The notes beneath the pieces were generated by a model. The model was not told the DNA's origin, searched no databases, and worked only from the letters and a program-made list of their open reading frames with translations. From Catillopecten margaritatus gill symbiont (lineage in GTDB: Bacteria; Pseudomonadota; Gammaproteobacteria; PS1; Pseudothioglobaceae), in contig CP138327.1 of NCBI GenBank assembly GCA_037956075.1, forward strand, positions 744,001-808,000: a stretch of DNA of 64,000 nt, given 5' to 3'. Of the stretch, positions 37,114 to 64,000 are shown one piece after another. A program made the translations under genes and the position numbers. Positions within the stretch are counted from its first letter, which is position 1; every line of letters begins with the position of its first letter.

Positions 37114-39993
37114 TTATTTTCTATCACTAAATACATACTTTGGCTTAAACACATAAACCAATAACGGGATGATAGTCAATGCAATAACTACATCAATAAT
37201 CAACGCTTCGGAGATGAAGATAGCGAGCGCCCAAGTGTTCGCCAACTGAGTCATTAGTAATGGTATAAAACTACCCAGCAGCACTAAAATTGATGCAAAT
37301 ACAGCAGCACCTGTGGTTTCCAGTGTATTTTTGAGTGCGTCTGTCCATTTGCCACCTGTGGCATGCATTTCTTCTTTTAGACGCGATATCATATAAATAC
37401 CGTAATCCACACCTAATCCCATTGCGATTGATAAACTTACCAAGGTGGCAAAATGCAGATTGCCCGACCAGTTTTCAACACTGGTGAAATAAGCACCTAA
37501 GCCATATTGAGCAAATAAGGTAATCAACAATGTACCTGTCAAAATACTGGCAATCAATGGCGAACCAAATATCAAGGCAGTGATAATAAAGATAGCGAGC
37601 GCAGTAACGAGTGGCGACTTGATATATTCCACTTCTGCGACATCGTGGGTGGCTTCAGTAGCCCCTAAGAAACCGCCGACGGCTATTGTATCAGTGCCAC
37701 TGTCTTCGACTCGCACAGTTTTGCCACTTTCAGGCATTTTGATAATATCACCCGACTTATAACCCCAATTTACCAAATTAAAACCTGATTCGTTTTCGTG
37801 CTTCTTAAAAAATGCCTGAATGTCTTTCACGGTTTGATGCGTTTTGACAGGATCCATTGTGTTCACAAAGCCCATAATCACACCTTCATTCCAGTCTTTA
37901 TGCACGAAGGATTCTAAATCACCAGCGTTGGTATTAGCTTCTAACAAACCATTGAAACCTGTTACGATTTCGTTGGCATTTGGCACCCATTCTGGGTCTT
38001 CCTTGTCGCCATAGACATCCATATTTTTGGCAATAAATGCGTCATTCGGCACATGGAAATAACGCAAATCAGGCTCCTGCCCTTCTGGGGTCATCATTAG
38101 CATATTAACAATTTTCAAAAACTGAATGTAAGAACCTGTAAAGCCGATATTTGGGTGTGCACGCATCCAGTCTTCGGTTTTTTCAATCGCTGCCATTACT
38201 TCAGCATTATTGAAAGCACCTTGTGGAGCGTCCTCATCTTCGTCCCAACATTTCGTACCTTCTGGCATTGAGCCGTCATAAGTACAGGCTGGTAACATTG
38301 GGAAGTTTGCGATCTTACCCTTAATCGGAATATTGACCGAAATCACCCCTGGCATTACCTCACCAAGGCGACGCAAATCAATATTGGCATCTGAATCGTA
38401 TTTAAAGGCAGCACGGGAATAGTTAATTCCGACTTCTAAACCTGGCATTGGACTATCCTTCGTCGGTGTTAAAATCTTGGTTTGCATAGCACTCCATACA
38501 ATCAAAGCAACAATCATTGTAATCGGAATATATTTAAGTTTGGTGGTAATTACACTCACCAAAAAACCTGCCATATTGGTCTCAAATTTGGAACTTTGGC
38601 ACTCATATTTTTCTTTATCTTTTTGTAAATCTGCTGGGCAAAAAGTTGCCATTAGAATCGGTGCAATGGTCGTCGTCGTTAGTAAAATTGTGAGCATTCC
38701 AAACATCCCAAAATACGCATACGCCTTGTAAAAAGAAATGTCCACAAACGACAAAGTAAAGAAACCCACCATATCCGTTACAATTGCCAAAGTCGCAGGC
38801 ACAATTGTCGCAGCAATTGCCGCCTGTGCCGCTTCCATCGGCGCCAAACTCTTGTTGTGCAATTCACTCAAATAGCGTCTTACTACTTGCACAGCATGTC
38901 CTGTGCCAATCGCTAATAATAGCATCGGTGTCAGCACCATCATTGTGGTGAGTTTGTATTGAGTAAAACCCATTAAGCCCAAAGTGATAATAATGGTGGA
39001 AACCACACCAATCAATGGGAATACCGACCCACGCCAGCCTTTATTGAGTCGCCACAAGGCAGCCACCACAATCAAGAATGAAATTAAAAACAACCACCAT
39101 TTTTGCACCAAATCATACAACATAAATGCCAAAAAATAGGGCTCGCCTGCAATACGCACTTCCACCCTGTCGCCATGTTCTGCCTTAATTTCATCCACCA
39201 GTTTAATCACCGAAGATACCCATGGTAGATAATCGTTTTTCACACTGTCCGAATAATCACCAACGATAAAGAAACCTTTGGCACGACACTCATCATACCA
39301 ACCCTCTTTAGCAAATTCGCAACGAACACCGTCGGCTGTTTGCTTGAGCATCAACATCGGTGCCAACACAGGATTGGTTTCAATGCCTTTTTTCAAATGT
39401 GCTATTTGCTTTTTAGCCACCACCGCATCATCACTAATCCCCTCCACAGGTATCAAGCGTTCAAACTTCAAACCACCATCGCTCGAAGTCCCCATATATT
39501 TGATTTTCTGCGCTGCAATATCCATAAAGTTATTGCCTCGTGCATGTTTAAGTGCCACCATATCGTTATGTGCTTTTTGCACCATATTGATAAACCATGG
39601 CTGATATACATCTTTGCTGTCCTCCCAAGTACCTTTCGCATTTTCACAAATGGCTTGCGTCATTTTCACCGCATCCGATTCATTAATACGCAATCCAGTT
39701 TGTGGGTCAAAACGCACAATTTTGTCCGCATCAGCATAAGGATTATCCCCACCCACACACTGTTTCAACACAAAACCAACCACCATAATATTGCCAAACC
39801 CAAACTTCTGCTCGCCATACGCATTCGTTGCCACATAGCGATTAGATTCTGGCAATAAGGTATCGGGGTCGTTACGGATATCTAAGTCTTTAATAAAAAA
39901 AGCAGACAACAGGGTGAACACCCCCATAAATATCAGTAAAGCCTTGCGATTGCGTATCACAAAAGTAGCGTATTTTGTGGCAAAGTTATTCAT
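37114..39993 (-). CDS. RND-superfamily (MMPL-type) exporter
   Basis: A 959-residue inner-membrane pump with a duplicated layout: a membrane helix at residues about 15-32, a large periplasmic domain, a block of five to six helices (about 290-450), a second periplasmic domain, and a final helix block (about 780-950). It belongs to the predicted-exporter group that includes MMPL and HpnN-like proteins, driven by proton flow and often moving lipids. GTGHAVQVVRR and GLGVDYGIYMISR are the conserved helix-4-type motifs. The genes upstream on this strand encode an outer-membrane barrel and a LolA-like protein, pointing to transport of a hydrophobic substrate across the envelope. Confidence 0.88.
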   Translation of the reverse strand: MNNFATKYATFVIRNRKALLIFMGVFTLLSAFFIKDLDIRNDPDTLLPESNRYVATNAYGEQKFGFGNIMVVGFVLKQCVGGDNPYADADKIVRFDPQTGLRINESDAVKMTQAICENAKGTWEDSKDVYQPWFINMVQKAHNDMVALKHARGNNFMDIAAQKIKYMGTSSDGGLKFERLIPVEGISDDAVVAKKQIAHLKKGIETNPVLAPMLMLKQTADGVRCEFAKEGWYDECRAKGFFIVGDYSDSVKNDYLPWVSSVIKLVDEIKAEHGDRVEVRIAGEPYFLAFMLYDLVQKWWLFLISFLIVVAALWRLNKGWRGSVFPLIGVVSTIIITLGLMGFTQYKLTTMMVLTPMLLLAIGTGHAVQVVRRYLSELHNKSLAPMEAAQAAIAATIVPATLAIVTDMVGFFTLSFVDISFYKAYAYFGMFGMLTILLTTTTIAPILMATFCPADLQKDKEKYECQSSKFETNMAGFLVSVITTKLKYIPITMIVALIVWSAMQTKILTPTKDSPMPGLEVGINYSRAAFKYDSDANIDLRRLGEVMPGVISVNIPIKGKIANFPMLPACTYDGSMPEGTKCWDEDEDAPQGAFNNAEVMAAIEKTEDWMRAHPNIGFTGSYIQFLKIVNMLMMTPEGQEPDLRYFHVPNDAFIAKNMDVYGDKEDPEWVPNANEIVTGFNGLLEANTNAGDLESFVHKDWNEGVIMGFVNTMDPVKTHQTVKDIQAFFKKHENESGFNLVNWGYKSGDIIKMPESGKTVRVEDSGTDTIAVGGFLGATEATHDVAEVEYIKSPLVTALAIFIITALIFGSPLIASILTGTLLITLFAQYGLGAYFTSVENWSGNLHFATLVSLSIAMGLGVDYGIYMISRLKEEMHATGGKWTDALKNTLETTGAAVFASILVLLGSFIPLLMTQLANTWALAIFISEALIIDVVIALTIIPLLVYVFKPKYVFSDRK

Positions 39994-40047
39994 CGTATTT
40001 TCCTTTCTTATATCAGTTTATTATTATTTTCTTATTTTCTTTTCATG

Positions 40048-40079
40048 CAAAAAAAATCCCGCAAAATACGGGATTTTTG
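40048..40079. terminator. Hairpin terminator or attenuator
   Basis: The stem ATCCCG / CGGGAT with a CAAAATA loop, an A run on one side and TTTTT on the other. It lies between the 59-residue gene and the RND pump gene on the minus strand, so it could reduce read-through into the pump gene. Confidence 0.7.
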
Positions 40080-40102
40080 TCACTCTAAATATCGCAAAGC
40101 AC

Positions 40103-40282
40103 TTACTTTATACCATGCAACAAGGTAATCATATATCCCATACCAATAATTAAAATACCTGACATTACTTCAAGTCTAATTAACCAAAAATCAAAATGCG
40201 TCACTTCTTCTGAGGCAGCTTGTGCTTTTTCAGGGCTTGCACCTGCTTCAATTAAAGCATCATAAGTTTTTGATAACATCAT
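40103..40282 (-). CDS. Small coiled-coil/membrane protein, 59 residues
   Basis: An overlooked short frame from ATG 40282 (a second ATG follows at once) to TAA 40103. The product starts MMLSKTYDALIEAGASPEKA, a helix with the pattern seen in DUF1640-like coiled-coil proteins, and ends with one membrane helix (SGILIIGMGYMITLLHGIK). It sits between the barrel and pump genes with AAAGAAAGGG upstream. It may be an accessory subunit of the RND module; no function is known to me. Confidence 0.65.
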   Translation of the reverse strand: MMLSKTYDALIEAGASPEKAQAASEEVTHFDFWLIRLEVMSGILIIGMGYMITLLHGIK

Positions 40283-40326
40283 TGCCCTTTCTTTACCCCA
40301 AATAAACTAACTAAGTTGCATTATGC

Positions 40327-42843
40327 TTAGAAAGTATATTTAAGTCCAATTTGGATATTTGAGGTGTTTTTCAACTGCCCAAACTGGGTATTTTCATCAC
40401 CCCAGTATTTGTTATATTCAACCGTGGCAACCGTGTCATCATTGATAGAAAACTCAGCATCTAAACGATTCCACTTGCCACCATTCTCTTCAAACATAAA
40501 GATGTTATTCCATCTGTGTTCGCCCGATGCACCAAACGGCTTAGAGAAGAATAAAGAATAGAAATCTTTATTTTTCTCAGCCTGTTGAAAGCCATTAGAT
40601 AAATGCATAGTTGCATAATCTGTAGTATAGCCACTTGCATCATCCACATAATCTAGGTTTCTATCTTGAATGAACTGTGCAGACACCAGCATATTTTTCA
40701 GCACAGTAATATCTGCACCTAATACATATTTAAATCTATCTGCTTTTTTCATTTGCAAAGCACCAACCAAACCACCAATCGATAAACGAGATTTATTCAT
40801 CACTGGCGAGTAACCATCTTTGGTATAAAGTGCCTCACCACGAATTACTACAGAACCAAATGCTTTGGTTTCAATCGCCGTATCAAATGAGCCACCAATT
40901 TGTTTCACTCGTTTAACTTCTTGTGAGAATTGTAGAGTTGCCGCCTTTCCACCTGAGCCGCCATAAAGCCCATTATCGGTGCCAGTACCAGCAGTGTAAT
41001 ATGTATCGCTGCTATTTCCAGCAGCAACACCACCAGGTGCTGTTGCATTCGCAGTATCAACTACCTGCAAAGTTGTGGTGTTATATTGAACGCCTGCCAC
41101 TGGATTTGCGTTATAACCCGTTGTATTTTGCGTGCCATTCGCATTGTAAGTAGTTTTCACTTCGTGTACAGTTAATTCTTGCCCTACATTACCCCTCCAA
41201 GATAAATCAATAATTGGATTTTTGTCGTAGTTATATGACGCATTCACCGAGTAGTTCACTCCATCCCTTGAACCTTTAAATCTTGCAGCCACATCTACAT
41301 CGGTATCTTTCGGCATATTATAAACATACTGAGATTTTGCATTTACAAACGCATCAAAGGTTCTAAAAGTAGTGTTAGTCATATATTCAACAGCAGAATT
41401 TTTCTTACCATCACTAAAAGAGGAAAGGTTTGAATTGTATAACGGCTGAAAACCTGCATCTAACATAACAGCACCCGTTAAATCACCAGCATTAAGAAGG
41501 TCTGTACTAGTGCTAGCATCAAAATCAACAACATTACCTGTTGTATCCGTATGTTTTAAACCATATTTTGCAACAATAGCGGCTTTAGCTTCGGAGTTAG
41601 TCATTCCAGCGCCCATATAGCCACCAATCAAACCATTATAAGTATCCATAATGGCTTTTTTAAAACCAGGGGTAACAAACGCTAAACTATTATCAGTATT
41701 AGCATTCCAAGTTGCACCACCCGCATTAGCCAAATTATTGTTAAGCCCTCTCGCTCCAGTTATTCTCATTTTACTAAAACCAGCAACGGTAAAACCTTCC
41801 ATTGCCGCACCATTTAAGCCACCAAAGCCAGCACCACCAATTTTTTGGTTAAAAGCTAAAATACTGGCGGCATCAACCGCATTATATTTTCCATCAGCAC
41901 CTACTGCCACAGTATTTCCATTAATCGTAGTTGCAGAATTATTAAGATTAACCTCTATATCATCGTTAGTAGATGTAGCATCATCTCTTGTAAATGCCAT
42001 CGCAAAACGACTAGCCACTGAGCCTAAATCAGGCACAATATTTAAGAAACCATTGCGTGCACCTGTAATCGTATCAGGGCCTTTCATCATAAAAGCATGT
42101 CCAGAGTCAGTACCATTGTTTAATGTGTTATCTATCACTGGATCTTGCTGGAGAGTACCCAAATTAATTCCGTTCATCCTAACACTAGTGTCAATATTAC
42201 GATTTAAACCAGCAAAAATATTTTCTTTTGGTTGAGAAATCACGATTTGAATATTACTACCATCCTCTAAGTCTTTTTCAGCATTCAGCATCCAAGTAGT
42301 AATACGGGAATCTTCCATCTGGTTTTGTGCCATTTCTGAGTAATCTGTTGGATTAATTAAATCTAACAATTTCGCACCATCTGCCGTCCCCCAAACCACT
42401 TGTTGCTTGCCCGCACGAATAGCCCAATCACCTGCTTCGGTATCAATATATGCCTCGCGTAATGGATCTCGTTGTGTGTAAGCCTCAACGGAATCATAAG
42501 TTTTAATGGCTTTGCCGTCAAATACACCTTGGACTTCCACATGAAAAGTCGAATCTTTAACATCGCCATCAAAGAATACCTGCGCTTTAGCTTCTGATTT
42601 AAACACATCTGAACTATGTGATGGCGTAGCATCATTTGTCACTAAACCATAACGAGGGTTAGAGCCATTACCGCCAGTAGCATCAACCGCCGAATCACCA
42701 AAATTACCAATCGTAGAACCCGAATTAGTAAAGCCAGCCGCCTCGTAAGTCATCTTACCTGTAACTTCCGTCTCTGCTGATGCCAGCGAACTGGCGAGTA
42801 GTGCCGAGATTGCAACGGCTAATAGTTTGTTAGTTTGTTTCAT
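40327..42843 (-). CDS. DUF1302-family outer-membrane beta-barrel
   Basis: An 838-residue protein with a clear signal peptide (to about residue 23, LASSLASAE) and a C-terminus ending in phenylalanine (IQIGLKYTF), the outer-membrane barrel signature. The segment WAIRAGKQQVVWGTADGAKL followed by LDLINPTDYSEMAQ is characteristic of DUF1302. Long Asn/Gly/Ala/Thr-rich stretches (about residues 280-470, 580-640) look like surface loops or insertions and exceed the usual family length. Encoded between a LolA-like protein and the pump, it is a likely outer-membrane exit or receptor. Confidence 0.85.
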   Translation of the reverse strand: MKQTNKLLAVAISALLASSLASAETEVTGKMTYEAAGFTNSGSTIGNFGDSAVDATGGNGSNPRYGLVTNDATPSHSSDVFKSEAKAQVFFDGDVKDSTFHVEVQGVFDGKAIKTYDSVEAYTQRDPLREAYIDTEAGDWAIRAGKQQVVWGTADGAKLLDLINPTDYSEMAQNQMEDSRITTWMLNAEKDLEDGSNIQIVISQPKENIFAGLNRNIDTSVRMNGINLGTLQQDPVIDNTLNNGTDSGHAFMMKGPDTITGARNGFLNIVPDLGSVASRFAMAFTRDDATSTNDDIEVNLNNSATTINGNTVAVGADGKYNAVDAASILAFNQKIGGAGFGGLNGAAMEGFTVAGFSKMRITGARGLNNNLANAGGATWNANTDNSLAFVTPGFKKAIMDTYNGLIGGYMGAGMTNSEAKAAIVAKYGLKHTDTTGNVVDFDASTSTDLLNAGDLTGAVMLDAGFQPLYNSNLSSFSDGKKNSAVEYMTNTTFRTFDAFVNAKSQYVYNMPKDTDVDVAARFKGSRDGVNYSVNASYNYDKNPIIDLSWRGNVGQELTVHEVKTTYNANGTQNTTGYNANPVAGVQYNTTTLQVVDTANATAPGGVAAGNSSDTYYTAGTGTDNGLYGGSGGKAATLQFSQEVKRVKQIGGSFDTAIETKAFGSVVIRGEALYTKDGYSPVMNKSRLSIGGLVGALQMKKADRFKYVLGADITVLKNMLVSAQFIQDRNLDYVDDASGYTTDYATMHLSNGFQQAEKNKDFYSLFFSKPFGASGEHRWNNIFMFEENGGKWNRLDAEFSINDDTVATVEYNKYWGDENTQFGQLKNTSNIQIGLKYTF

Positions 42844-42856
42844 TTTTTCTCCTCAA

Positions 42857-43795
42857 TTATTTAATCTTTCTTGGTATTTTTCTAAGGGTCTTAGTTGACC
42901 ATAGATTTTTTGCTTTATATTTGTGATTGACCTTAGTAACATTCGATGGAATGAATGCCATAGTTTCGTGACCTGTGGCATGTGTAGTGCCATACCAATA
43001 ACCCCAGTAATTCGCACGAGCATCGTCTAAATTGGCTGAAACCCAACTTCTGTCAATGATTTTGATTTTGTTACCCTCTTTGAAATATTCGGTGCGGTAG
43101 TCAACAAAAGTTTTGCTGTCGATGTAACTAACACGATTGTCATACCACCAGTTAGCATCTTTTGTGGTTGATTTGAGTTTGTAAACTGCTTTGCCGTCAA
43201 CAGAGCAATCAGCTTTGATGTTGGCTTTTTGCGTGTATTTGTTGCGTTTAACATTTTGCATCACACTCAAACAGCCCGACATTGTTGTTTTACCAAGCAG
43301 CTCATGAGTTTCGTGCTTGGGTTTACGCAAAGTTACATCGCCAAAGGTAAAATCTGAACCACCCCAAGCGTCATCTCGTGCTGGCTGTGCAAAACGACGC
43401 ACTTTGCGAATAGAAGGGATAAAAATTTCATACGATTGCGATTTACTCTGATCCTTAAAATCGGTAATCAACATACCTGTACCTTTCAACTTGCCCGAAC
43501 GGAAAATTGCCAAGTCTTGCGCATTGACATTCGATTTTTTCGGTGCATTATTCAAATAACGCTCCAAAGTCAATGTTAATGGATTTGAGCCTTTTGGCCT
43601 AAGAATCAAAGCGGTAATATCCTTACCTTTTTTAGTAATCGCATAGTTTTTAAAACTATAAAAATGATTGACAAAATAATTCTGATTCGCTACTTCATTT
43701 GCTGATACATCTCCTGACGGATACGCCAAGTCTTTTGTCACTGTCGCCTGTGCAACGCCTGTTGCAAGGACTATTGATAAAGCAATATGCTTCAT
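42857..43795 (-). CDS. LolA-like outer-membrane lipoprotein-sorting family protein
   Basis: A 312-residue periplasmic protein with a signal peptide (residues 1-17, ending GVAQA). The core has the PF17131-type pattern of LolA-like proteins: LKGTGMLITDFKDQSKS, IPSIRKVRRFAQPARDDAWG, then GSDFTFGDV. Such proteins share the half-barrel fold that shields acyl chains. It lies 13 bases upstream of the DUF1302 barrel gene and is first in the operon that ends with the RND pump. It is probably a hydrophobic-ligand carrier rather than true LolA. Confidence 0.82.
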   Translation of the reverse strand: MKHIALSIVLATGVAQATVTKDLAYPSGDVSANEVANQNYFVNHFYSFKNYAITKKGKDITALILRPKGSNPLTLTLERYLNNAPKKSNVNAQDLAIFRSGKLKGTGMLITDFKDQSKSQSYEIFIPSIRKVRRFAQPARDDAWGGSDFTFGDVTLRKPKHETHELLGKTTMSGCLSVMQNVKRNKYTQKANIKADCSVDGKAVYKLKSTTKDANWWYDNRVSYIDSKTFVDYRTEYFKEGNKIKIIDRSWVSANLDDARANYWGYWYGTTHATGHETMAFIPSNVTKVNHKYKAKNLWSTKTLRKIPRKIK

Positions 43796-53255: not shown

Positions 53256-54319
53256 AACGCTTCTACCACCAAATCACCCATTTTACTTGTGCCAACAATT
53301 ATATCGCCCTCGCTGGCAATATCTTGAGTGCGGTAGCCTTGGTCTAAAACGCTATTAACGGCTGCTTCAATTTTCTCTGCAAGGGTTTCTTGATTGAGTG
53401 AATAACGCAACATCATTGCTACTGAAAGAATGGTTGCTAATGGGTTTGCTAAATCTTGTCCAGCAATGTCAGGAGCACTGCCGTGAATTGGCTCGTACAT
53501 ACCAAAACCGTCTTTATTGAGTGATGCCGATGGCAACATACCAATCGAACCTGTCAACATTGCTGCACAATCCGACAGCACATCGCCAAACAAATTACTG
53601 GTTACCATGACATCAAATTGCTTGGGTGCTTTGACGAGTTGCATCGCTGCATTGTCCACATACATATGCGAAAGTTCAACATCTGGGTATTCTTTTGCCA
53701 CTTCTTCCATGGTTTCACGCCATAATTCACATACTTCTAACACATTCGCTTTATCCACTGAACAAACACGCTTGTCTCGCAATTGAGCAATTTTAAAGGC
53801 TGAATGTCCGATGCGTTTGATTTCAGATTCAAAATAAGTTGCGGTATTAAAACCGTATTTTTCGCCATTTTTCTCTTCCACGCCTCGTGGTTGACCAAAA
53901 TAAATCCCTGCCACCAACTCACGCACAATCATCAAATCCAAACCCGAAACCACCTCTTCTTTTAAAGTCGAGGCACTGGCGAGTTGCGGATACAAAATCG
54001 CAGGGCGCAAGTTAGAAAACAAATCCATCTCTGCACGCAAACCTAACAAGCCTCGCTCTGGACGCAAATCTCGTTCCAACTTTTCCCACTGATAACCACC
54101 CACAGCACCCAACAAAATAGAATCACATTCTGCCGCCGCATCTAGCGTCGCCTGTGGCAATGGCGAACCCGTGTCATCATACGCCGTGCCACCAATTAAC
54201 CCGTGTACCAATGCCATATTAAGTTCGTTATTTTCATTCAGAAAATTGATAACTTTCAACGCCTGCTCGACAATCTCTTGCCCAATGCCATCACCTGGTA
54301 ATATTAATACTTTTGACAT
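53252..54319 (-). CDS. leuB: LeuB, 3-isopropylmalate dehydrogenase (only intact copy)
   Basis: A 355-residue NAD-dependent enzyme of leucine synthesis. It shows [16 protein letters not shown], the substrate loop [22 protein letters not shown], the Asp metal ligands in [17 protein letters not shown] and the NAD site [17 protein letters not shown]. It starts in the TAATG overlap with the rubredoxin stop. Two 61-codon 5' fragments of this gene occur further right as part of the triplication; this copy alone is complete. leuC and leuD are not adjacent. Confidence 0.95.
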
Positions 54320-54483
54320 TAAATTTCAACCATTTCAAATTGATCCTTAGTCACGCCACAATCAGGGCAAACCCAATCTTCTGGCACATCTTCCCATTTT
54401 GTACCTGGCGCAAGCCCTTCTTTTTCAGAACCTTTTGCTTCATCATAAACCCAACCACAAACCATACATTTATACTTTTTCAT
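54319..54483 (-). CDS. Rubredoxin, copy 1
   Basis: A 54-residue one-iron electron carrier with the two cysteine pairs CMVCGW and CPDCGV (about residues 6-9 and 39-42) and the YDEAKGS / [11 protein letters not shown] core. ATG 54483 has GCAGGAG at a good distance; the longer frame from 54519 reads through the terminator hairpin and is rejected. The stop overlaps leuB (TAATG). Rubredoxins can pass electrons to peroxide- or superoxide-reducing enzymes, which fits the peroxiredoxin gene just upstream. Confidence 0.95.
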
Positions 54484-54496
54484 CTTTTTCTCCTGC

Positions 54497-54530
54497 AAAA
54501 AAAAGGGAGTGAAACCCACTCCCTTTTTTA
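54497..54530 (-). terminator. Hairpin between peroxiredoxin and rubredoxin (copy 1)
   Basis: The stem GGGAGTG / CACTCCC with a five-base loop and A/T runs on both sides. On the minus strand it should end or reduce transcription after the peroxiredoxin gene and before the rubredoxin gene, leaving a lower level for rubredoxin-leuB. The same hairpin recurs at 56882-56915 and 59267-59300. Confidence 0.85.
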
Positions 54531-54548
54531 TTAAATTTTTTAACGCAA

Positions 54549-55148
54549 TTACAGCTTGTCAGCGTTCTTAGTTAGATACTCAGCCACACCCTCTGGCGTG
54601 TCCTTCATACCTTCATCGCCCTTATTCCAACCTGCTGGACAAACCTCGCCGTGTGTTGTGTGGAAATCAAGCGCATCTACCATACGCAACATCTCATCAA
54701 CATCACGACCCAATGGCAAATCATTGACAACTTGATGACGCACATCAAAATTCTCATCAATCAAAAATGACGCACGAAGCGCAATACCCGCTGGATGAAC
54801 AACGCCGTAAGATTCCATAATCGAATGATTAACATCCGCAACCAATGGAAAATCAATCTTGCCTAAACCGCCATCTTTCGGGTCAGTATTTCTCCAAGCG
54901 TTATGCGTGAATTGTGAATCAATAGAAACGCCTACCACTTCAACACCCTTTTCAGCGAACTTCGCCATACGGTGATGATGTGCCAAAATCTCAGAAGGAC
55001 ATACAAAAGTGAAGTCCAACGGATAAAAGAATAACATAATTTTCTTACCCTTAAGGCTTGAAAGAGTAAAGTCATCTACGATTGACCCATCTGCCAATAC
55101 CGCCGCAGAAGTAAAGTCTGGTGCTTGTTGTGTTACTAAAACGCTCAT
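54549..55148 (-). CDS. Typical 2-Cys peroxiredoxin (AhpC/Prx1 type), copy 1
   Basis: A 199-residue thiol peroxidase that reduces hydrogen peroxide and organic peroxides. The peroxidatic cysteine is in [10 protein letters not shown] (about residue 52) and the resolving cysteine in GEVCPAGW (about 170), the 2-Cys Prx1/AhpC arrangement. ATG 55148 ([12 protein letters not shown]) has GGAGAAAA upstream; the frame to 55208 is not credible. ahpF is absent; thioredoxin, glutaredoxin or rubredoxin could be the reductant. Confidence 0.94.
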
Positions 55149-55415
55149 ATTTTTCTCCAAAATTACAATATATAAAGTGCTAATTATACAACCCAATAGC
55201 CTTCTCAATCATATAAAAGTGGGAAATATTTTTATTCAACTTATTTGTAATTGATATTTTGTTACCTTGGATGTAGCTAAAAGACCTTTGTTAACTTTAT
55301 AAGATTCATCGGCTACGCTCGGAATGACAGTGGAAATTGAACATTTATTGATGCTTATTAGAATTACAAGGTCAAAAATCAGTCTGAACCATACGCCTTA
55401 CTTTATGGTTTTAAT

Positions 55416-56520
55416 TTAAAAATCAAAGTTGTAGCGTAGAACTAAACTGGTTTTATTCTGGTCGGGAAAATAGGCTTTGTATTCACTATCCACATCGCCA
55501 GTAGTTTGTGAGTGAGAGACATTGAGTTGCAGGTTGTTAGCAAGGTCGTGGCTCCATTTTAGAGTATTTAGGGCGGAGTTGTCAGTGCTGGTACGACGGC
55601 TGAGGCTGAGTTCGTGGGTGTTGAATTTTTTGCCCAAACGCAAAAAATGATAGCGTTGGCGTAGTCCATTTGGGCGAACTAGGGCTAAACCTGCAGCACC
55701 TCTGAGTTTGTAATTTTGCCATTCTTGGTTGTTCATACCTCGGTCGTCTTGGCTAATTTCAGCGATAAGATTGGTGTTATTATCACTGATCCAGTGCCAG
55801 CCTAGCATTGAACGGGTATAGCGTCTTCCATCATTTTCTCGGTATGTGCCTACCGTTGCAGTTGGCATATTCAAACTTGCTAGAGTGGTGCCTTTACGGG
55901 TGAAAAAGGATCCGTAGAGTTTTGAATTATCATTGGCAATGTGGCGAAAACCTGCACCAAAACCTGTTTTAACGCCTTCTTTTTTATGAATAATGAACGA
56001 TAAATCAGTGTTATTATTGAGAAAATAATTGAGCCTAACACCTTGTGATTTGTAGCCATAGCCACGCACGGCATTGCGTTGTTTTGTATCATCGCCCATA
56101 TAAAAATCTAAGGCGCCATTTTCTAAAATGTAACGAGTGGCAATGGCATTGATACCGAGTTTTTCGTTTAAATCATCGTTATTATTAGGTGGATGATAGG
56201 GGTCGGTAACAGCCAAAGGATTAAAGGCGTAGCCGAGTTGCCAGTTTTCGATAAATTTACCTATTTGCACGCTTAATTCATCGTTAATATCTTTGATATA
56301 AAAGAGTTTCTGGATGGTGGTTTTTTCGGCTTCTGTTTCATATTTGAGTTGATATTCAACGCCTAACATATCACCATTAAATGACAAAATAGCGTTGGTT
56401 TTTTCTGCGCCCCTTAGCGTGTTTGACACAACTGGGTTTTCCCATAGTCCATCTCTGTCCAGCTTGTAACTGTGAGTGGTGATATTGAGTTGGTTGACAG
56501 GTTTGGCAACGGCGTTGCCG
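55416..56520 (-). pseudogene. Outer-membrane barrel gene, 5'-truncated (copy 1)
   Basis: Identical to the intact gene at 60186-61328 except that its first 38 bases (start codon and most of the signal peptide) are replaced by leuB sequence at the junction 56520/56521. The remaining frame can start only at an internal GTG (56429), giving 337 residues with no signal peptide, so the product should not reach the outer membrane. It may still be transcribed from the unit to its right. The barrel C-terminus ends LRYNFDF as in the parent. Confidence 0.9.
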
Positions 56521-56704
56521 CCGCATCTAGCGTCGCCTGTGGCAATGGCGAACCCGTGTCATCATACGCCGTGCCACCAATTAACCCGTGTACCAATGCC
56601 ATATTAAGTTCGTTATTTTCATTCAGAAAATTGATAACTTTCAACGCCTGCTCGACAATCTCTTGCCCAATGCCATCACCTGGTAATATTAATACTTTTG
56701 ACAT
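56521..56704 (-). pseudogene. leuB 5' fragment (copy 2)
   Basis: The first 61 codons of leuB, identical to the intact gene, starting at ATG 56704 in the TAATG overlap with rubredoxin. After the junction the frame continues out of phase into the barrel gene for about 35 residues and stops at 56414, predicting a 96-residue chimera with no expected function. The NAD and metal sites are missing. Confidence 0.92.
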
Positions 56705-56868
56705 TAAATTTCAACCATTTCAAATTGATCCTTAGTCACGCCACAATCAGGGCAAACCCAATCTTCTGGCACATCTTCCCATTTTGTACCTGGCGCAAGC
56801 CCTTCTTTTTCAGAACCTTTTGCTTCATCATAAACCCAACCACAAACCATACATTTATACTTTTTCAT
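56704..56868 (-). CDS. Rubredoxin, copy 2
   Basis: Identical 54-residue rubredoxin within the second unit, with the same ATG, GCAGGAG site and TAATG overlap, here with the truncated leuB. The CXXC pairs are intact, so it should be functional. Selection for rubredoxin dosage is possible, although it may simply be carried along with the peroxiredoxin gene. Confidence 0.94.
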
Positions 56869-56933
56869 CTTTTTCTCCTGCAAAAAAAAGGGAGTGAAAC
56901 CCACTCCCTTTTTTATTAAATTTTTTAACGCAA

Positions 56934-57533
56934 TTACAGCTTGTCAGCGTTCTTAGTTAGATACTCAGCCACACCCTCTGGCGTGTCCTTCATACCTTCA
57001 TCGCCCTTATTCCAACCTGCTGGACAAACCTCGCCGTGTGTTGTGTGGAAATCAAGCGCATCTACCATACGCAACATCTCATCAACATCACGACCCAATG
57101 GCAAATCATTGACAACTTGATGACGCACATCAAAATTCTCATCAATCAAAAATGACGCACGAAGCGCAATACCCGCTGGATGAACAACGCCGTAAGATTC
57201 CATAATCGAATGATTAACATCCGCAACCAATGGAAAATCAATCTTGCCTAAACCGCCATCTTTCGGGTCAGTATTTCTCCAAGCGTTATGCGTGAATTGT
57301 GAATCAATAGAAACGCCTACCACTTCAACACCCTTTTCAGCGAACTTCGCCATACGGTGATGATGTGCCAAAATCTCAGAAGGACATACAAAAGTGAAGT
57401 CCAACGGATAAAAGAATAACATAATTTTCTTACCCTTAAGGCTTGAAAGAGTAAAGTCATCTACGATTGACCCATCTGCCAATACCGCCGCAGAAGTAAA
57501 GTCTGGTGCTTGTTGTGTTACTAAAACGCTCAT
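56934..57533 (-). CDS. 2-Cys peroxiredoxin, copy 2
   Basis: Identical to the copy at 54549-55148, 199 residues with both catalytic cysteines. The whole upstream intergenic region (57534-57800) is duplicated too, so any promoter in it is present in each copy. The terminator hairpin after it is also retained. Intact and presumably expressed, raising total enzyme dosage. Confidence 0.93.
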
Positions 57534-57800
57534 ATTTTTCTCCAAAATTACAATATATAAAGTGCTAATTATACAACCCAATAGCCTTCTCAATCATATA
57601 AAAGTGGGAAATATTTTTATTCAACTTATTTGTAATTGATATTTTGTTACCTTGGATGTAGCTAAAAGACCTTTGTTAACTTTATAAGATTCATCGGCTA
57701 CGCTCGGAATGACAGTGGAAATTGAACATTTATTGATGCTTATTAGAATTACAAGGTCAAAAATCAGTCTGAACCATACGCCTTACTTTATGGTTTTAAT

Positions 57801-58905
57801 TTAAAAATCAAAGTTGTAGCGTAGAACTAAACTGGTTTTATTCTGGTCGGGAAAATAGGCTTTGTATTCACTATCCACATCGCCAGTAGTTTGTGAGTGA
57901 GAGACATTGAGTTGCAGGTTGTTAGCAAGGTCGTGGCTCCATTTTAGAGTATTTAGGGCGGAGTTGTCAGTGCTGGTACGACGGCTGAGGCTGAGTTCGT
58001 GGGTGTTGAATTTTTTGCCCAAACGCAAAAAATGATAGCGTTGGCGTAGTCCATTTGGGCGAACTAGGGCTAAACCTGCAGCACCTCTGAGTTTGTAATT
58101 TTGCCATTCTTGGTTGTTCATACCTCGGTCGTCTTGGCTAATTTCAGCGATAAGATTGGTGTTATTATCACTGATCCAGTGCCAGCCTAGCATTGAACGG
58201 GTATAGCGTCTTCCATCATTTTCTCGGTATGTGCCTACCGTTGCAGTTGGCATATTCAAACTTGCTAGAGTGGTGCCTTTACGGGTGAAAAAGGATCCGT
58301 AGAGTTTTGAATTATCATTGGCAATGTGGCGAAAACCTGCACCAAAACCTGTTTTAACGCCTTCTTTTTTATGAATAATGAACGATAAATCAGTGTTATT
58401 ATTGAGAAAATAATTGAGCCTAACACCTTGTGATTTGTAGCCATAGCCACGCACGGCATTGCGTTGTTTTGTATCATCGCCCATATAAAAATCTAAGGCG
58501 CCATTTTCTAAAATGTAACGAGTGGCAATGGCATTGATACCGAGTTTTTCGTTTAAATCATCGTTATTATTAGGTGGATGATAGGGGTCGGTAACAGCCA
58601 AAGGATTAAAGGCGTAGCCGAGTTGCCAGTTTTCGATAAATTTACCTATTTGCACGCTTAATTCATCGTTAATATCTTTGATATAAAAGAGTTTCTGGAT
58701 GGTGGTTTTTTCGGCTTCTGTTTCATATTTGAGTTGATATTCAACGCCTAACATATCACCATTAAATGACAAAATAGCGTTGGTTTTTTCTGCGCCCCTT
58801 AGCGTGTTTGACACAACTGGGTTTTCCCATAGTCCATCTCTGTCCAGCTTGTAACTGTGAGTGGTGATATTGAGTTGGTTGACAGGTTTGGCAACGGCGT
58901 TGCCG
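57801..58905 (-). pseudogene. Outer-membrane barrel gene, 5'-truncated (copy 2)
   Basis: Same structure as the truncated copy at 55416-56520: the first 38 bases are lost at the junction 58905/58906 and replaced by leuB sequence. The only start is the internal GTG at 58814. Without a signal peptide the product would remain in the cytosol. No further decay is visible, which argues that the event is recent. Confidence 0.9.
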
Positions 58906-59089
58906 CCGCATCTAGCGTCGCCTGTGGCAATGGCGAACCCGTGTCATCATACGCCGTGCCACCAATTAACCCGTGTACCAATGCCATATTAAGTTCGTTA
59001 TTTTCATTCAGAAAATTGATAACTTTCAACGCCTGCTCGACAATCTCTTGCCCAATGCCATCACCTGGTAATATTAATACTTTTGACAT
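58906..59089 (-). pseudogene. leuB 5' fragment (copy 3)
   Basis: Second 61-codon leuB fragment, joined to the barrel gene at the same TGCCG junction and giving the same 96-residue out-of-frame chimera (59089-58799). Identity of the two junctions shows that the third copy came from recombination between existing copies and not from an independent event. Confidence 0.92.
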
Positions 59090-59253
59090 TAAATTTCAAC
59101 CATTTCAAATTGATCCTTAGTCACGCCACAATCAGGGCAAACCCAATCTTCTGGCACATCTTCCCATTTTGTACCTGGCGCAAGCCCTTCTTTTTCAGAA
59201 CCTTTTGCTTCATCATAAACCCAACCACAAACCATACATTTATACTTTTTCAT
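59089..59253 (-). CDS. Rubredoxin, copy 3
   Basis: Identical to the other two copies, with both CXXC pairs. It belongs to the rightmost unit, the one still attached to the intact barrel gene and therefore probably the original upstream context of the rubredoxin-peroxiredoxin pair. The leuB fragment follows it by TAATG. Confidence 0.94.
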
Positions 59254-59318
59254 CTTTTTCTCCTGCAAAAAAAAGGGAGTGAAACCCACTCCCTTTTTTA
59301 TTAAATTTTTTAACGCAA

Positions 59319-59918
59319 TTACAGCTTGTCAGCGTTCTTAGTTAGATACTCAGCCACACCCTCTGGCGTGTCCTTCATACCTTCATCGCCCTTATTCCAA
59401 CCTGCTGGACAAACCTCGCCGTGTGTTGTGTGGAAATCAAGCGCATCTACCATACGCAACATCTCATCAACATCACGACCCAATGGCAAATCATTGACAA
59501 CTTGATGACGCACATCAAAATTCTCATCAATCAAAAATGACGCACGAAGCGCAATACCCGCTGGATGAACAACGCCGTAAGATTCCATAATCGAATGATT
59601 AACATCCGCAACCAATGGAAAATCAATCTTGCCTAAACCGCCATCTTTCGGGTCAGTATTTCTCCAAGCGTTATGCGTGAATTGTGAATCAATAGAAACG
59701 CCTACCACTTCAACACCCTTTTCAGCGAACTTCGCCATACGGTGATGATGTGCCAAAATCTCAGAAGGACATACAAAAGTGAAGTCCAACGGATAAAAGA
59801 ATAACATAATTTTCTTACCCTTAAGGCTTGAAAGAGTAAAGTCATCTACGATTGACCCATCTGCCAATACCGCCGCAGAAGTAAAGTCTGGTGCTTGTTG
59901 TGTTACTAAAACGCTCAT
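59319..59918 (-). CDS. 2-Cys peroxiredoxin, copy 3
   Basis: Identical 199-residue enzyme. It lies 268 bases downstream of the intact barrel gene (60186) on the same strand. That gap holds the REP-like half-arm near 60082 and AT-rich sequence, and is where the gene's own promoter should be; I cannot fix the boxes. It is followed by the same hairpin as the other copies. Confidence 0.93.
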
Positions 59919-60185
59919 ATTTTTCTCCAAAATTACAATATATAAAGTGCTAATTATACAACCCAATAGCCTTCTCAATCATATAAAAGTGGGAAATATT
60001 TTTATTCAACTTATTTGTAATTGATATTTTGTTACCTTGGATGTAGCTAAAAGACCTTTGTTAACTTTATAAGATTCATCGGCTACGCTCGGAATGACAG
60101 TGGAAATTGAACATTTATTGATGCTTATTAGAATTACAAGGTCAAAAATCAGTCTGAACCATACGCCTTACTTTATGGTTTTAAT

Positions 60186-61328
60186 TTAAAAATCAAAGTT
60201 GTAGCGTAGAACTAAACTGGTTTTATTCTGGTCGGGAAAATAGGCTTTGTATTCACTATCCACATCGCCAGTAGTTTGTGAGTGAGAGACATTGAGTTGC
60301 AGGTTGTTAGCAAGGTCGTGGCTCCATTTTAGAGTATTTAGGGCGGAGTTGTCAGTGCTGGTACGACGGCTGAGGCTGAGTTCGTGGGTGTTGAATTTTT
60401 TGCCCAAACGCAAAAAATGATAGCGTTGGCGTAGTCCATTTGGGCGAACTAGGGCTAAACCTGCAGCACCTCTGAGTTTGTAATTTTGCCATTCTTGGTT
60501 GTTCATACCTCGGTCGTCTTGGCTAATTTCAGCGATAAGATTGGTGTTATTATCACTGATCCAGTGCCAGCCTAGCATTGAACGGGTATAGCGTCTTCCA
60601 TCATTTTCTCGGTATGTGCCTACCGTTGCAGTTGGCATATTCAAACTTGCTAGAGTGGTGCCTTTACGGGTGAAAAAGGATCCGTAGAGTTTTGAATTAT
60701 CATTGGCAATGTGGCGAAAACCTGCACCAAAACCTGTTTTAACGCCTTCTTTTTTATGAATAATGAACGATAAATCAGTGTTATTATTGAGAAAATAATT
60801 GAGCCTAACACCTTGTGATTTGTAGCCATAGCCACGCACGGCATTGCGTTGTTTTGTATCATCGCCCATATAAAAATCTAAGGCGCCATTTTCTAAAATG
60901 TAACGAGTGGCAATGGCATTGATACCGAGTTTTTCGTTTAAATCATCGTTATTATTAGGTGGATGATAGGGGTCGGTAACAGCCAAAGGATTAAAGGCGT
61001 AGCCGAGTTGCCAGTTTTCGATAAATTTACCTATTTGCACGCTTAATTCATCGTTAATATCTTTGATATAAAAGAGTTTCTGGATGGTGGTTTTTTCGGC
61101 TTCTGTTTCATATTTGAGTTGATATTCAACGCCTAACATATCACCATTAAATGACAAAATAGCGTTGGTTTTTTCTGCGCCCCTTAGCGTGTTTGACACA
61201 ACTGGGTTTTCCCATAGTCCATCTCTGTCCAGCTTGTAACTGTGAGTGGTGATATTGAGTTGGTTGACAGGTTTGGCAACGGCGTTGCCGATTAACAAAC
61301 TAACGAGGACAATGAGGAGGCTTTTCAT
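60186..61328 (-). CDS. Outer-membrane beta-barrel, DUF1302-like (only intact copy)
   Basis: A 380-residue protein with signal peptide MKSLLIVLVSLLIGNAVA and a mature domain of alternating beta strands ending LRYNFDF, a C-terminal Phe typical of outer-membrane barrels. The segment VQIGKFIENWQLGYAFNPL with DPYHPP parallels the GK-x-W-x-NP-x-DY segment of the larger DUF1302 barrel at 40327. Start ATG 61328 overlaps the LolA-like gene's TGA. It is the fourth gene of an ABC transporter operon and presumably its outer-membrane component. Two truncated copies lie to its left. Confidence 0.85.
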   Translation of the reverse strand: MKSLLIVLVSLLIGNAVAKPVNQLNITTHSYKLDRDGLWENPVVSNTLRGAEKTNAILSFNGDMLGVEYQLKYETEAEKTTIQKLFYIKDINDELSVQIGKFIENWQLGYAFNPLAVTDPYHPPNNNDDLNEKLGINAIATRYILENGALDFYMGDDTKQRNAVRGYGYKSQGVRLNYFLNNNTDLSFIIHKKEGVKTGFGAGFRHIANDNSKLYGSFFTRKGTTLASLNMPTATVGTYRENDGRRYTRSMLGWHWISDNNTNLIAEISQDDRGMNNQEWQNYKLRGAAGLALVRPNGLRQRYHFLRLGKKFNTHELSLSRRTSTDNSALNTLKWSHDLANNLQLNVSHSQTTGDVDSEYKAYFPDQNKTSLVLRYNFDF

Positions 61329-62014
61329 CTTATTGCGTTACGCATTCCTCTACTGGTTAAAAGGCGTTTTGGAATTTTTTTGCCTTTGACACCGAGGAAA
61401 TTCATCACGGTTTTTTGCTTTTTTGAGGTGTAAGTAATGCTTTTCAAAGTGTCGTCTTTGACATTGTAGTGCATTTTTTTATACAGTTTTCCACTTCTTA
61501 AATACGCCTGTGCGTCAATAGGTCTTTGGTCATCTTGGGCAATGACTAAAACAATTTTGTGATAAGTAGCGCTGGATTTTTTGGCAATAAGTTTTAAAGT
61601 AATCGTATTTTTTGCTTGTTTTAAAATCGTTGGCGTATAGTTTTCACTGAAACGCAAACCCGCAAGGTCGCCATACGATGCTTGCCCTAACAACCGCTGA
61701 ATTGGGGTAATACGCACGGCACGACTGCTGTTTTTTGGGGCAACAAACATACCTTTATGACTGAGTAAAATACGATTACCTTTGTCGCTACCATCTAAAA
61801 CACTGACCAAACTTTGTCCATCTTGGTGGAAAACTTTATAGTGTCGGCTTTTTTTAATTTTCCCATTTTTATACTCGTCAATTTTTATATCTAATTGTGC
61901 GTGGGTGAATGGTGAACGAAAAGTGTCTGCCTTAACTAATAATTCCATAGCACTCATTTGTGCCATGGCGGGTAAAGCGAACAATGCTAAAAATAATAGG
62001 TTTAAAATATTCAT
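61325..62014 (-). CDS. LolA-like outer-membrane lipoprotein-sorting family protein
   Basis: A 229-residue periplasmic protein with signal peptide (about residues 1-18, ending LPAMAQ). The mature part opens SAMELLVKADTFRSPFTHA and has ITPIQRLLGQASYGDLAGLRF followed by an ITLKLIAKK strand, the pattern of PF17131-type LolA-like proteins found beside ABC or RND exporters. It probably shuttles a lipidated or hydrophobic substrate from the ABC permease to the barrel. It is shorter than its counterpart at 42857 (312 residues). It overlaps the barrel gene by four bases. Confidence 0.83.
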   Translation of the reverse strand: MNILNLLFLALFALPAMAQMSAMELLVKADTFRSPFTHAQLDIKIDEYKNGKIKKSRHYKVFHQDGQSLVSVLDGSDKGNRILLSHKGMFVAPKNSSRAVRITPIQRLLGQASYGDLAGLRFSENYTPTILKQAKNTITLKLIAKKSSATYHKIVLVIAQDDQRPIDAQAYLRSGKLYKKMHYNVKDDTLKSITYTSKKQKTVMNFLGVKGKKIPKRLLTSRGMRNAIR

Positions 62015-62016
62015 AA

Positions 62017-63258
62017 TTATGTGTGTGAAAGTTGCTCAACCACTTTCTTTTTTAAAATTTTATTAATCGGTAAATAGGAAGCGACAACGCCCAACAAACT
62101 CATCGCCAGCAACACCCAAACTGCCATATCCACAGTTGGCAATATTAGCAATGGGTATTGTGTGGAACGCCCTGGTGGAGGTGGCATCATAATACCCGCT
62201 TGACTAATGAAAAACGCCAAAACAAAGCCCAATATCACACCAAAAATAGCACCCATAAAACCAATGATTAAACCCTCAAAAACGAAGTTAAGTCGCAGTT
62301 GCCATTTTTCAATACCAAAGGCTCGCAAGGTGCCGATTTCTGGCACTCGTTCATTCACCGTTGTGCCCATCACATTTGCCACGGACAGCAAGGCGACTGT
62401 CATAATAATCACACCCATTACGGTGAAAATCGAATAATAAATAACCTCTACCGCCTTGAAATACGGCTTAATGTCATACCAAGGTCGTACGGTCATTTTT
62501 GTGTTTTTCACTAAGTTTTCGACTGCGGGTAAGACGGCTTTGGTTGCTTCAATATCACGCAATTGCACGACAATACTACTGACTTTATCCGTGAACAATA
62601 ATTTTTGTGCTAAGGCAATTGGCACTTTGATGTTTAATTGGTTAGTAATCGGAATACCTGTGTCGTAAATACCGCTCACGGTAGCATCAATAGCATTAAT
62701 TCCCCCTTCAACGGTATTGGCAAGTAGCACAACTTCATCGCCAACATCGACGCTGAGTTTTTTGGCCAAATCAATGGCTAACACAGCTTGAAAAGGATTT
62801 TTATCGGTGTTTTTAAACATTGCACCTTTAATGAAAGCACCTGATGCATTGCCTTGTTGCAGGCGTTTTTCTTTGAGATTTTCAATACCTGTGCCGCGAA
62901 ATACGGTGCTGATACTGTCGTCTTTTGAGAGGATGCCAGTGAATAAAATGCGTTTCATTGCACGACGAACGGACTTAGTTTTTTCTAATTTTATGACGGT
63001 TTCATCAGCAGTTTTGCTACTGAGTCCGAACTCTAATAATTCGGTTTCAAAATCTGTTACCATGCGTTTATCCACGATTTGCATATTGCCTGTTCCGCCT
63101 TGAACGATGACCCTAGTTAAGCCCCAAAAAGTGAAATTGATGTAGCCATGTGCCACAATAATGGCACTAGAGACAATTGCCACTGTCCAGATTGCTACCA
63201 TTGAACGACGCTTGTTACGCACAACATTTCGCCATGCCATTTTGAACCATTTATTCAT
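62017..63258 (-). CDS. FtsX/LolC-like ABC transporter permease
   Basis: A 413-residue permease with the MacB/LolC layout: an N-terminal membrane helix (about 20-42) following MAWRNVVRNKRRS, a large periplasmic domain (about 45-265), and three C-terminal helices (about 270-400) with the FtsX-type stretch VNERVPEIGTLRAFGIEKWQ. Such permeases act as mechanotransmission devices extracting substrates from the inner membrane or periplasm. One permease gene only, so a homodimer is likely. Start ATG 63258 overlaps the ATPase stop. Confidence 0.9.
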   Translation of the reverse strand: MNKWFKMAWRNVVRNKRRSMVAIWTVAIVSSAIIVAHGYINFTFWGLTRVIVQGGTGNMQIVDKRMVTDFETELLEFGLSSKTADETVIKLEKTKSVRRAMKRILFTGILSKDDSISTVFRGTGIENLKEKRLQQGNASGAFIKGAMFKNTDKNPFQAVLAIDLAKKLSVDVGDEVVLLANTVEGGINAIDATVSGIYDTGIPITNQLNIKVPIALAQKLLFTDKVSSIVVQLRDIEATKAVLPAVENLVKNTKMTVRPWYDIKPYFKAVEVIYYSIFTVMGVIIMTVALLSVANVMGTTVNERVPEIGTLRAFGIEKWQLRLNFVFEGLIIGFMGAIFGVILGFVLAFFISQAGIMMPPPPGRSTQYPLLILPTVDMAVWVLLAMSLLGVVASYLPINKILKKKVVEQLSHT

Positions 63259-63923
63259 ACTAGTTCTCCGTCAAGCAAATTGATTGTATTGTTGACCTTA
63301 TTAAGCAAGCGCTCATCGTGGGTGGAAAATAGAAAAGTTGTACCCAAGTCTTGGTTTAGTTTTTTCATCAAGTCAATTAAGACAAAGGTATTTTCTGAAT
63401 CTAAGTTTGCCGTTGGCTCGTCTGCCAAAATCAGTTTTGATTCGCCCATCAATGAACGCGCCACTGACACTCTTTGCTGTTGTCCGCCGGACAATTGATT
63501 GGGAAAAGCATTCATTTTGTCTTTTAGCCCAACTTGCTTTAAAAAATATTGCGCTTGTGCTTTGCGTTCTTTGGCATTTGGAATGCTGGCAAGTGCCGAC
63601 ATTTCTACATTTTCTAATGCCGTTAGGACAGGCAATAAATTAAAATCTTGAAAAATAAAACCTAAATCAAAGGCACGCAAATGGTTGATATGTGCTTCAT
63701 CGTTATTATTAATTTTCACCCCATCAAAATAATACTCGCCACTACTCGCATCATCCAACAAGCCAATAATATTTAACAAAGTGCTTTTACCTGAACCACT
63801 CGGCCCAGAAACCGCAGTAAATGCCCCTGCTTCAATTTCCAAATCAATGCCTTTGAGTGCCTTGACTTCGGCAATCCCTTCGCCAAAAGTTTTGTTGATA
63901 TTTTTTAAACGAATTAAACTCAA
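63255..63923 (-). CDS. LolD/MacB-like ABC transporter ATP-binding protein
   Basis: A 222-residue ATPase with Walker A GPSGSGKST, the Q-loop in LGFIFQDFNLLP, signature LSGGQQQRVSVARSL, Walker B LILADEPTANLDS and the H-loop STHDE. These place it in the LolD/MacB/FtsE group that pairs with FtsX-type permeases. The start is TTG 63923 with GGGAG upstream. It is the first clearly visible gene of the module; an upstream gene ends 10 bases earlier. Confidence 0.92.
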   Translation of the reverse strand: MSLIRLKNINKTFGEGIAEVKALKGIDLEIEAGAFTAVSGPSGSGKSTLLNIIGLLDDASSGEYYFDGVKINNNDEAHINHLRAFDLGFIFQDFNLLPVLTALENVEMSALASIPNAKERKAQAQYFLKQVGLKDKMNAFPNQLSGGQQQRVSVARSLMGESKLILADEPTANLDSENTFVLIDLMKKLNQDLGTTFLFSTHDERLLNKVNNTINLLDGELV

Positions 63924-63933
63924 CTTAGTCTCC

Positions 63934-64000
63934 CTACATCACATCCAAACTAATATCCGCACCAGACTCTTTTAACTCAAACTGTGCTTCGGAAAAAGGC
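63934..64000 (-). CDS. C-terminal end of an unidentified gene
   Basis: The last 21 codons of a minus-strand gene whose start lies beyond the window. The tail reads FSEAQFELKESGADISLDVM before TAG at 63934-63936. Ten bases separate it from the ABC ATPase start, so it is likely part of the same operon. Too short to identify. Confidence 0.5.
   Translation of the reverse strand, partial: PFSEAQFELKESGADISLDVM

Follow-up and report, generated by a model that had tools for sequence, protein, structure and literature searches.

An ABC operon with a LolA-like carrier and an outer-membrane barrel, and a parallel RND module, in the gill symbiont of Catillopecten margaritatus

Two carrier-and-barrel gene sets in one window

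We analyzed a 64,000-nucleotide stretch (hereafter, the window; contig CP138327.1, positions 744,001 to 808,000, forward strand) from the Catillopecten margaritatus gill symbiont, whose genome is a single contig of 1.54 Mb and whose closest relatives among named bacteria are sulfur symbionts of mussel gills. The window carries an operon of an ATP-binding cassette (ABC) ATPase, a permease, a LolA-like carrier, and an outer-membrane barrel at 60186-63923 (the ABC quartet), together with a resistance-nodulation-cell division (RND) module at 37114-43795, in which the gene order is LolA-barrel-RND. The genes are as follows.

63255-63923, minus strand: LolD/MacB-type ABC ATPase with a TTG start codon; Walker A and B motifs, signature, and H-loop present
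62017-63258, minus strand: FtsX/MacB-type (type VII) permease; Pfam FtsX plus MacB_PCD
61325-62014, minus strand: LolA-like periplasmic carrier of the ABC type; PF17131
60186-61328, minus strand: outer-membrane beta-barrel of the ABC operon; signal peptide; about 18 to 20 predicted strands, predicted OprD/AlgE-type fold; no Pfam family
63934-64000, minus strand: 3' end of a DUF2141 gene (PF09912); the rest lies past the window edge, to L003:12377 or 12470
42857-43795, minus strand: LolA-like carrier of the RND module; PF17131 matched in two pieces
40327-42843, minus strand: barrel of the RND module; its start shares the predicted strand order of the ABC barrel
37114-39993, minus strand: MMPL/HAE3-type RND transporter, the third gene of the RND module

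The initial annotation had read the ATPase, FtsX-like permease, LolA-like protein, and barrel as one operon, and all four were recovered in place on the minus strand. The four-base overlaps that it described occur at two of the three junctions, one of them between the carrier and barrel genes, whereas the permease and LolA-like genes are separated by a 2-base gap. ABC_tran, FtsX, MacB_PCD, and PF17131 (LolA_like) were all found above the Pfam cutoffs in the operon, and the two window carriers scored 66.9 and 66.2 bits with PF17131 (cutoff, 30); the ABC barrel matched no family in the Pfam search. The ATPase motifs GPSGSGKS, LSGGQ, LILADEP, and HD are intact. The permease shows one N-terminal transmembrane segment, a periplasmic domain, and then the C-terminal transmembrane segments, and it probably works as a homodimer, since the operon holds no other permease gene. 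The ABC carrier has a signal peptide and lacks a lipobox cysteine, and its profile matches the solved structure 3BUU at 185 bits. PDB entry 3BUU (NE2245), labeled only as an uncharacterized LolA-superfamily protein, is thus an ABC-type carrier as judged by sequence. The DUF2141 gene lies upstream of the ATPase gene with a gap of 10 bases; in each of the five ABC operons read in the bacterial family (the window, L044, L045, L058, and L061), such a gene stands before the ATPase gene, and it is likely to be the first gene of the operon.

Homology and predicted fold of the carriers and barrels

Neither the two window carriers nor the two window barrels showed any similarity to each other in pairwise BLASTP, and shallow profiles of 4 to 9 sequences gave only 2.7% and 21.6%. 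Because these comparisons showed nothing, genes were gathered by position and not by similarity. Three groups were formed, namely, the ABC type, RND-C (the window-type RND modules), and RND-A (a second RND type in the same bacterial family). The barrel sets, picked by synteny as the gene directly after the carrier, held 59, 14, and 29 sequences, respectively, and the carrier sets held 82, 28, and 34. Profiles were compared with hhalign, using reversed profiles, column shuffles, Porin_4, AlgE, and DUF1302 as controls.

The ABC barrels matched the RND-A barrels at 99.3% (E value of 4e-20, 307 columns, score of 155.6) and the RND-C barrels directly at 92.5% (E value of 5e-7, score of 61.5), and the two RND sets matched each other at 98.8%. 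Reversed profiles scored no more than 22.7, and twenty column shuffles scored no more than 23.8 and 24.2; against Porin_4, AlgE, and DUF1302, the ABC barrel profile gave 1.2%, 23.5%, and 14.7%. As for the carriers, ABC matched RND-A at 99.3% and RND-A matched RND-C at 99.8%, and the solved proteins 9tp6 and 3bk5 were matched by both carrier profiles. On the strength of the deep-profile matches, the PF17131 scores of both window carriers, and the common solved-protein matches, we judge from sequence profiles that the carriers of the two modules are homologous and that the barrels are as well, with the link running through RND-A. Iterated hidden Markov model searches likewise joined the barrels, but this result was set aside because iteration can drift. 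The initial annotation had matched the LolA-like proteins and the barrels pairwise across the modules, and the possibility that neither pair is related was not borne out by the deep profiles. BLASTP or shallow profiles alone would have led to a false rejection of homology, and deep synteny-picked sets were needed.

The two barrels of the window have a segment in common, GKFIENWQLGYAFNP (residues 100-114) in one and GKQQVVWGTADGAKLLDLINP (residues 145-165) in the other. The GK-x-W-x-NP-type segment reported in both by the initial annotation is thus present, and it is frequent in both kinds of barrel: a loose form of the pattern was found in 57 of 67 ABC barrels and in 21/29 and 21/22 RND barrels, compared with 0/20 Porin_4 proteins, 0/20 AlgE-type proteins, and 65/1020 background open reading frames. 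The label DUF1302-like may hold, and then at the profile level only. Neither window barrel reaches the Pfam cutoff of PF06980 (DUF1302), nor does any of 30 ABC barrels, while two of the 14 barrels of RND-C relatives do. A profile of four DUF1302 sequences, at 14.7% with the ABC barrels, reached 97% with the RND-A barrels, to which the ABC barrels are joined at 99.3%.

Fold models were built with AlphaFold2, two plasmid-record rows being left out of the alignments. The ABC barrel model had a predicted local distance difference test (pLDDT) value of 78.2 and a predicted template modeling (pTM) score of 0.77, and the RND barrel model had values of 64.2 and 0.68. Both models open with five predicted strands and place the GK motif on the fifth, which is followed by a conserved low-confidence stretch (about residues 106-131 in the ABC model and 151-179 in the RND model). 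Over their whole length, both models match OprD/Occ and AlgE barrels with Z scores of about 20 to 22, and both barrels are accordingly predicted to be of the OprD/AlgE type. In the RND barrel, about residues 205-500 form a large low-confidence insertion between the barrel halves, and this insertion is variable among relatives.

In the carrier tree, one deep branch sets all 35 ABC carriers apart, with a Shimodaira-Hasegawa-like approximate likelihood ratio (SH-aLRT) support of 100. In the barrel tree, which contains long branches, a single ABC clade was not rejected by the approximately unbiased test (p-AU of 0.83). Carrier and barrel identities covary within each type (rho of 0.84 and 0.88). 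The initial annotation had suggested that two kinds of motor power the same outer-membrane route. One motor is indeed of the ABC kind and the other of the RND kind, but a shared route is not supported, since each motor has its own LolA-like protein and its own barrel and the carriers are separated by a deep split. The two modules are therefore old sister systems, parallel lines of one design, and not one exit for two motors. Frequent motor swapping was ruled out by the one split in the carrier tree.

Distribution and genomic neighbors

Both carrier types were surveyed in the family and in the class. Among 83 genomes of the family, the ABC carrier was present in 5 and the window-type RND carrier in 14, and the source genome was the only one with both (1/83; 0.84 expected), which rules out the pairing as a family trait. 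Among 369 genomes of the class, 32 had the ABC carrier and 58 had a match to the RND profile; both were found in 17 of the 32 ABC-bearing genomes (5.0 expected; p of 2e-7, with genome size and kinship uncontrolled), and an adjacent RND gene was checked in at least 12 of those 17. Thus, holding both modules is common in the class and is no special trait of the source genome. At five of 20 inspected profile matches (L191, L193, L196, L197, and L199), an RND gene was not within reach.

Variants of both modules were also seen. PF17131 carriers with neither an RND nor an ABC gene within several kilobases (L191, L193, L196, and L199) show that motorless carriers exist. At L194:3728-6880, a single frame of 1051 residues combines an RND transporter with a LolA-like domain, with a barrel gene after it, and this resembles TOL_3187/3188 of Thalassolituus. 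In the same family, remnants of the RND-module carrier that are full of stops occur in three genomes (G029, G085, and G088), each about 1.2 Mb in size, whereas a 1.5-Mb member of that genus has the carrier whole; the RND module is lost in the course of genome reduction. In a close relative, a metagenome-assembled genome of "Ca. Thiodubiliella" (G004), the ABC operon (L058:7326-11262) is broken in the permease, carrier, and barrel frames, through either decay or long-read sequence errors.

A scan for the ABC carrier covered about 85,000 species genomes and gave 420 related places, of which the best 80 were examined. Motor and carrier occurred together in 76 of these 80, and a recognized barrel was present as well in 70. 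The places come from Vibrio, Photobacterium, Pseudoalteromonas, Massilia, Acidovorax, giant sulfur bacteria, Geobacteraceae, and Acidobacteriota. A His_kinase (PF06580) gene stood nearby in 49/80 and a LytTR regulator gene in 49/80, mostly downstream and on the same strand; neither was present beside the window operon or its close relatives. In 43/80, the ATPase is preceded by a secreted protein, roughly 200 residues long, that belongs to no Pfam family. Some quartets adjoin biosynthetic genes, namely, ketosynthase, ketoreductase, and thioesterase genes (L065), ketosynthase and malonyltransferase genes (L042), and a polyketide-like gene set (L111). Besides, in two Pseudoalteromonas loci (L081:8335-12687 and L123:8293-12663), LanC-like and LanB-type lanthipeptide genes directly follow the ABC carrier gene, with the barrel, kinase, and LytTR genes upstream.

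One further feature of the window overlaps the barrel gene of the ABC operon.

54131-61290, no strand: a unit of 2385 bases present in three identical tandem copies, each with a 5' piece of leuB, an entire ahpC (peroxiredoxin), and the ABC barrel gene's 3' part

Within the repeat region, the barrel gene is whole only at 60186-61328. Two partial copies (55416-56429 and 57801-58814) miss the first 43 codons and the signal peptide, and these by-products of the tandem repeat are unlikely to reach the outer membrane. The repeat junction has a 5-base microhomology (TGCCG), and ahpC was single copy in the congeners searched. The repeat is either a recent amplification that tripled ahpC or an assembly error.

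Proposed function, alternatives, and relation to known systems

We consider that the operon at 60186-63923 is probably a dedicated line for transfer of a hydrophobic or amphiphilic cargo from the inner to the outer membrane, and that the RND module is its parallel sister line. This reading draws on the gene content, the shared ancestry of the carriers and of the barrels, the one split in the carrier tree, the predicted barrel fold, and the conservation of the quartet. In the proposed mechanism, the ATPase-permease dimer would extract the cargo from the inner membrane as LolCDE or MacB does, the LolA-like carrier would ferry it across the periplasm inside its hydrophobic half-barrel cavity, and the 18- to 20-strand barrel would take it over and insert it into the outer membrane or let it out. 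The RND module at 37114-43795 would follow the same carrier-plus-barrel design with its own partners and an RND motor, driven probably by the proton gradient, whereas the ABC set would be driven by ATP. Both lines may descend from one ancestral carrier-barrel pair that long ago parted once by motor, each with a separate cargo. Type VII ABC proteins export or extract their substrates and are not known to import, and we therefore infer an outward direction; LolA-type cavities and the biosynthetic neighbors in a few relatives suggest the class of cargo, and the carrier would presumably hand its load to the barrel.

Several findings weigh against this reading. The direct comparison of ABC and RND-C carriers gave 3.3%, which is not significant, and their link passes via a third group (RND-A) and the Pfam model. 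The Porin_4 control reached 73% with the RND-C barrel, at the N-terminal, signal-peptide end, and beta-barrels have general features in common. The confidence of the RND barrel model is moderate (pLDDT of 64). Correlated divergence of carrier and barrel is also expected for neighboring genes from shared descent alone. Finally, the source genome shows no cargo gene adjoining the ABC operon, and the biosynthetic neighbors of the quartet are anecdotal and come from other lineages.

If carrier and barrel were common envelope folds joined independently to two motors, the parallel would be functionally meaningless, and the PF17131 proteins without a nearby motor (L191, L193, L196, and L199), the blank BLASTP and shallow-profile comparisons, and the weak direct carrier match would all fit. 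Independent joining nevertheless appears improbable, since both partners are homologous and encoded by adjacent genes, the scores lie far above those of unrelated barrels and shuffles, and the divergence of the carrier tracks that of the barrel. The ABC set might instead be a second Lol line, which releases and carries lipoproteins while the barrel aids their surface placement. Indeed, among named models, LolD and LolCE come closest to it, and in Borrelia, a cluster that combines this motor with a LolA-like protein has been interpreted as possibly exporting lipoproteins (PMC13078400). However, the scores stay far under the cutoffs (217.8 bits against 307.75 for LolD and 86.6 against 362.45 for lolCE), and elsewhere the genome encodes a LolC/E-type permease together with LolD (L005), as well as a canonical LolA (PF03548) at 1188361. 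Moreover, the window carrier matches PF17131 with no PF03548 match at an E value of ≤1, the operon lacks a LolB-like gene, and no lipoprotein gene was found to be a steady neighbor among relatives. Owing to the low Lol scores and the Lol genes elsewhere, the ABC operon probably does not serve lipoprotein sorting, and a second Lol line is unlikely.

It is also conceivable that both modules take up hydrophobic compounds through the barrel or work both ways. In Pseudomonas putida, growth on Tween 20 requires DUF1302/DUF1329 genes (PP_0765/0766 with PP_2018/2019; PMC10866462), in Thalassolituus, the levels of an MMPL-LolA fusion and of the predicted porin beside it increase on long alkanes (PMC6304351), and the predicted fold resembles substrate-specific OprD-type porins. 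Yet deletion of a related RND set lowered tolerance and raised dye influx, as export predicts (PMC6394551). Some ABC quartets adjoin biosynthetic rather than catabolic genes, and type VII transporters are not known to import; uptake is thus quite improbable. The kinase and LytTR genes downstream in 49/80 relatives each could imply that the ABC unit is mainly a sensor signaling to the kinase, like BceAB-type relatives among FtsX/MacB proteins, with transport being secondary. We regard this as very improbable, because no such genes stand beside the window operon or its close relatives, and a carrier and an outer-membrane barrel would be superfluous for a sensor.

Delivery of lipids and lipid-like products to the outer membrane is incompletely understood, and the lines described so far mostly rely on a single kind of motor. 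Here, a carrier-barrel unit occurs with two unrelated motors, which suggests that its periplasmic and outer-membrane half forms a separate module. The ABC barrel belongs to no Pfam family in spite of the 420 carrier-related places among about 85,000 genomes, and since the 3BUU (NE2245) structure is already solved, structure-led identification of the cargo is possible at once.

Each half of the pair has published relatives. RND-carrier-barrel systems have been described as AmeABCD (PMC6394551) and as the DUF1302/DUF1329 pair of P. putida (PMC10866462), an MMPL-LolA fusion with a porin is known (PMC6304351), aryl polyene export by RND and LolA-like proteins has been proposed (PMC8253772), and an ABC motor with a LolA-like protein has been reported in Borrelia, together with an Omp85 protein (PMC13078400). 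In the open-access literature, we found neither an account of the ABC quartet that includes this barrel nor any mention of its relationship to RND systems. The initial annotation was aware of no description of such paired systems, and none of the pair as such was found there; each half has a published relative (PMC6394551 and PMC13078400).

MacAB-TolC shares the MacB-type permease domain (MacB_PCD and FtsX) with the ABC operon, which differs in having a separate ATPase gene and no MacA or TolC in the operon or the flanks read. The design of LolCDE-LolA-LolB is likewise an ABC extractor with a half-barrel carrier, but the ABC operon has one permease gene, a PF17131 carrier, and a barrel in place of LolB. 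The aryl polyene genes apeL/apeM/apeN, which combine a dedicated motor and a LolA-like carrier with a lipid-like outer-membrane product, support the proposed class of cargo (PMC8253772); they have, however, an RND motor, a LolB-like (DUF3261) acceptor, and no barrel, and their transport role is only proposed. The Borrelia BBJ23-29 cluster has the same order of ATPase, FtsX/MacB-type permease, and LolA-like gene (PMC13078400), its motor genes BBJ26/27 are homologous to the window motor (E values of 2e-36 and 3e-28; L043), and helical periplasmic proteins are encoded nearby, as in many quartet relatives. Its LolA-like gene gave no match in a sequence search, and its outer-membrane part is the Omp85 protein BBJ25, whereas the window barrel is a 380-residue protein, OprD/AlgE-like by prediction, with no Omp85 match.

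A close likeness is also seen to AmeABCD and other RND (HAE3)-DUF1329/PF17131-DUF1302 systems, which have a carrier from the same Pfam clan, a homologous barrel, and adjacent genes (PMC6394551 and PMC10866462). Within the same bacterial family, the RND-A modules belong to this AmeABCD type, with a DUF1302 barrel, a PF17131 plus DUF1329 carrier, and an MMPL transporter. The ABC quartet differs from them in having an ABC ATPase and an FtsX permease instead of an RND motor; AmeABCD furthermore has a fourth periplasmic protein, AmeC, and the ABC barrel stays below the DUF1302 Pfam threshold. Tentatively, then, the quartet might represent a widespread and undescribed pathway for non-lipoprotein, lipid-like cargo, often governed by a LytTR two-component system of its own, and be the ABC sister of the RND/LolA/DUF1302 systems through a single ancient exchange of motor.

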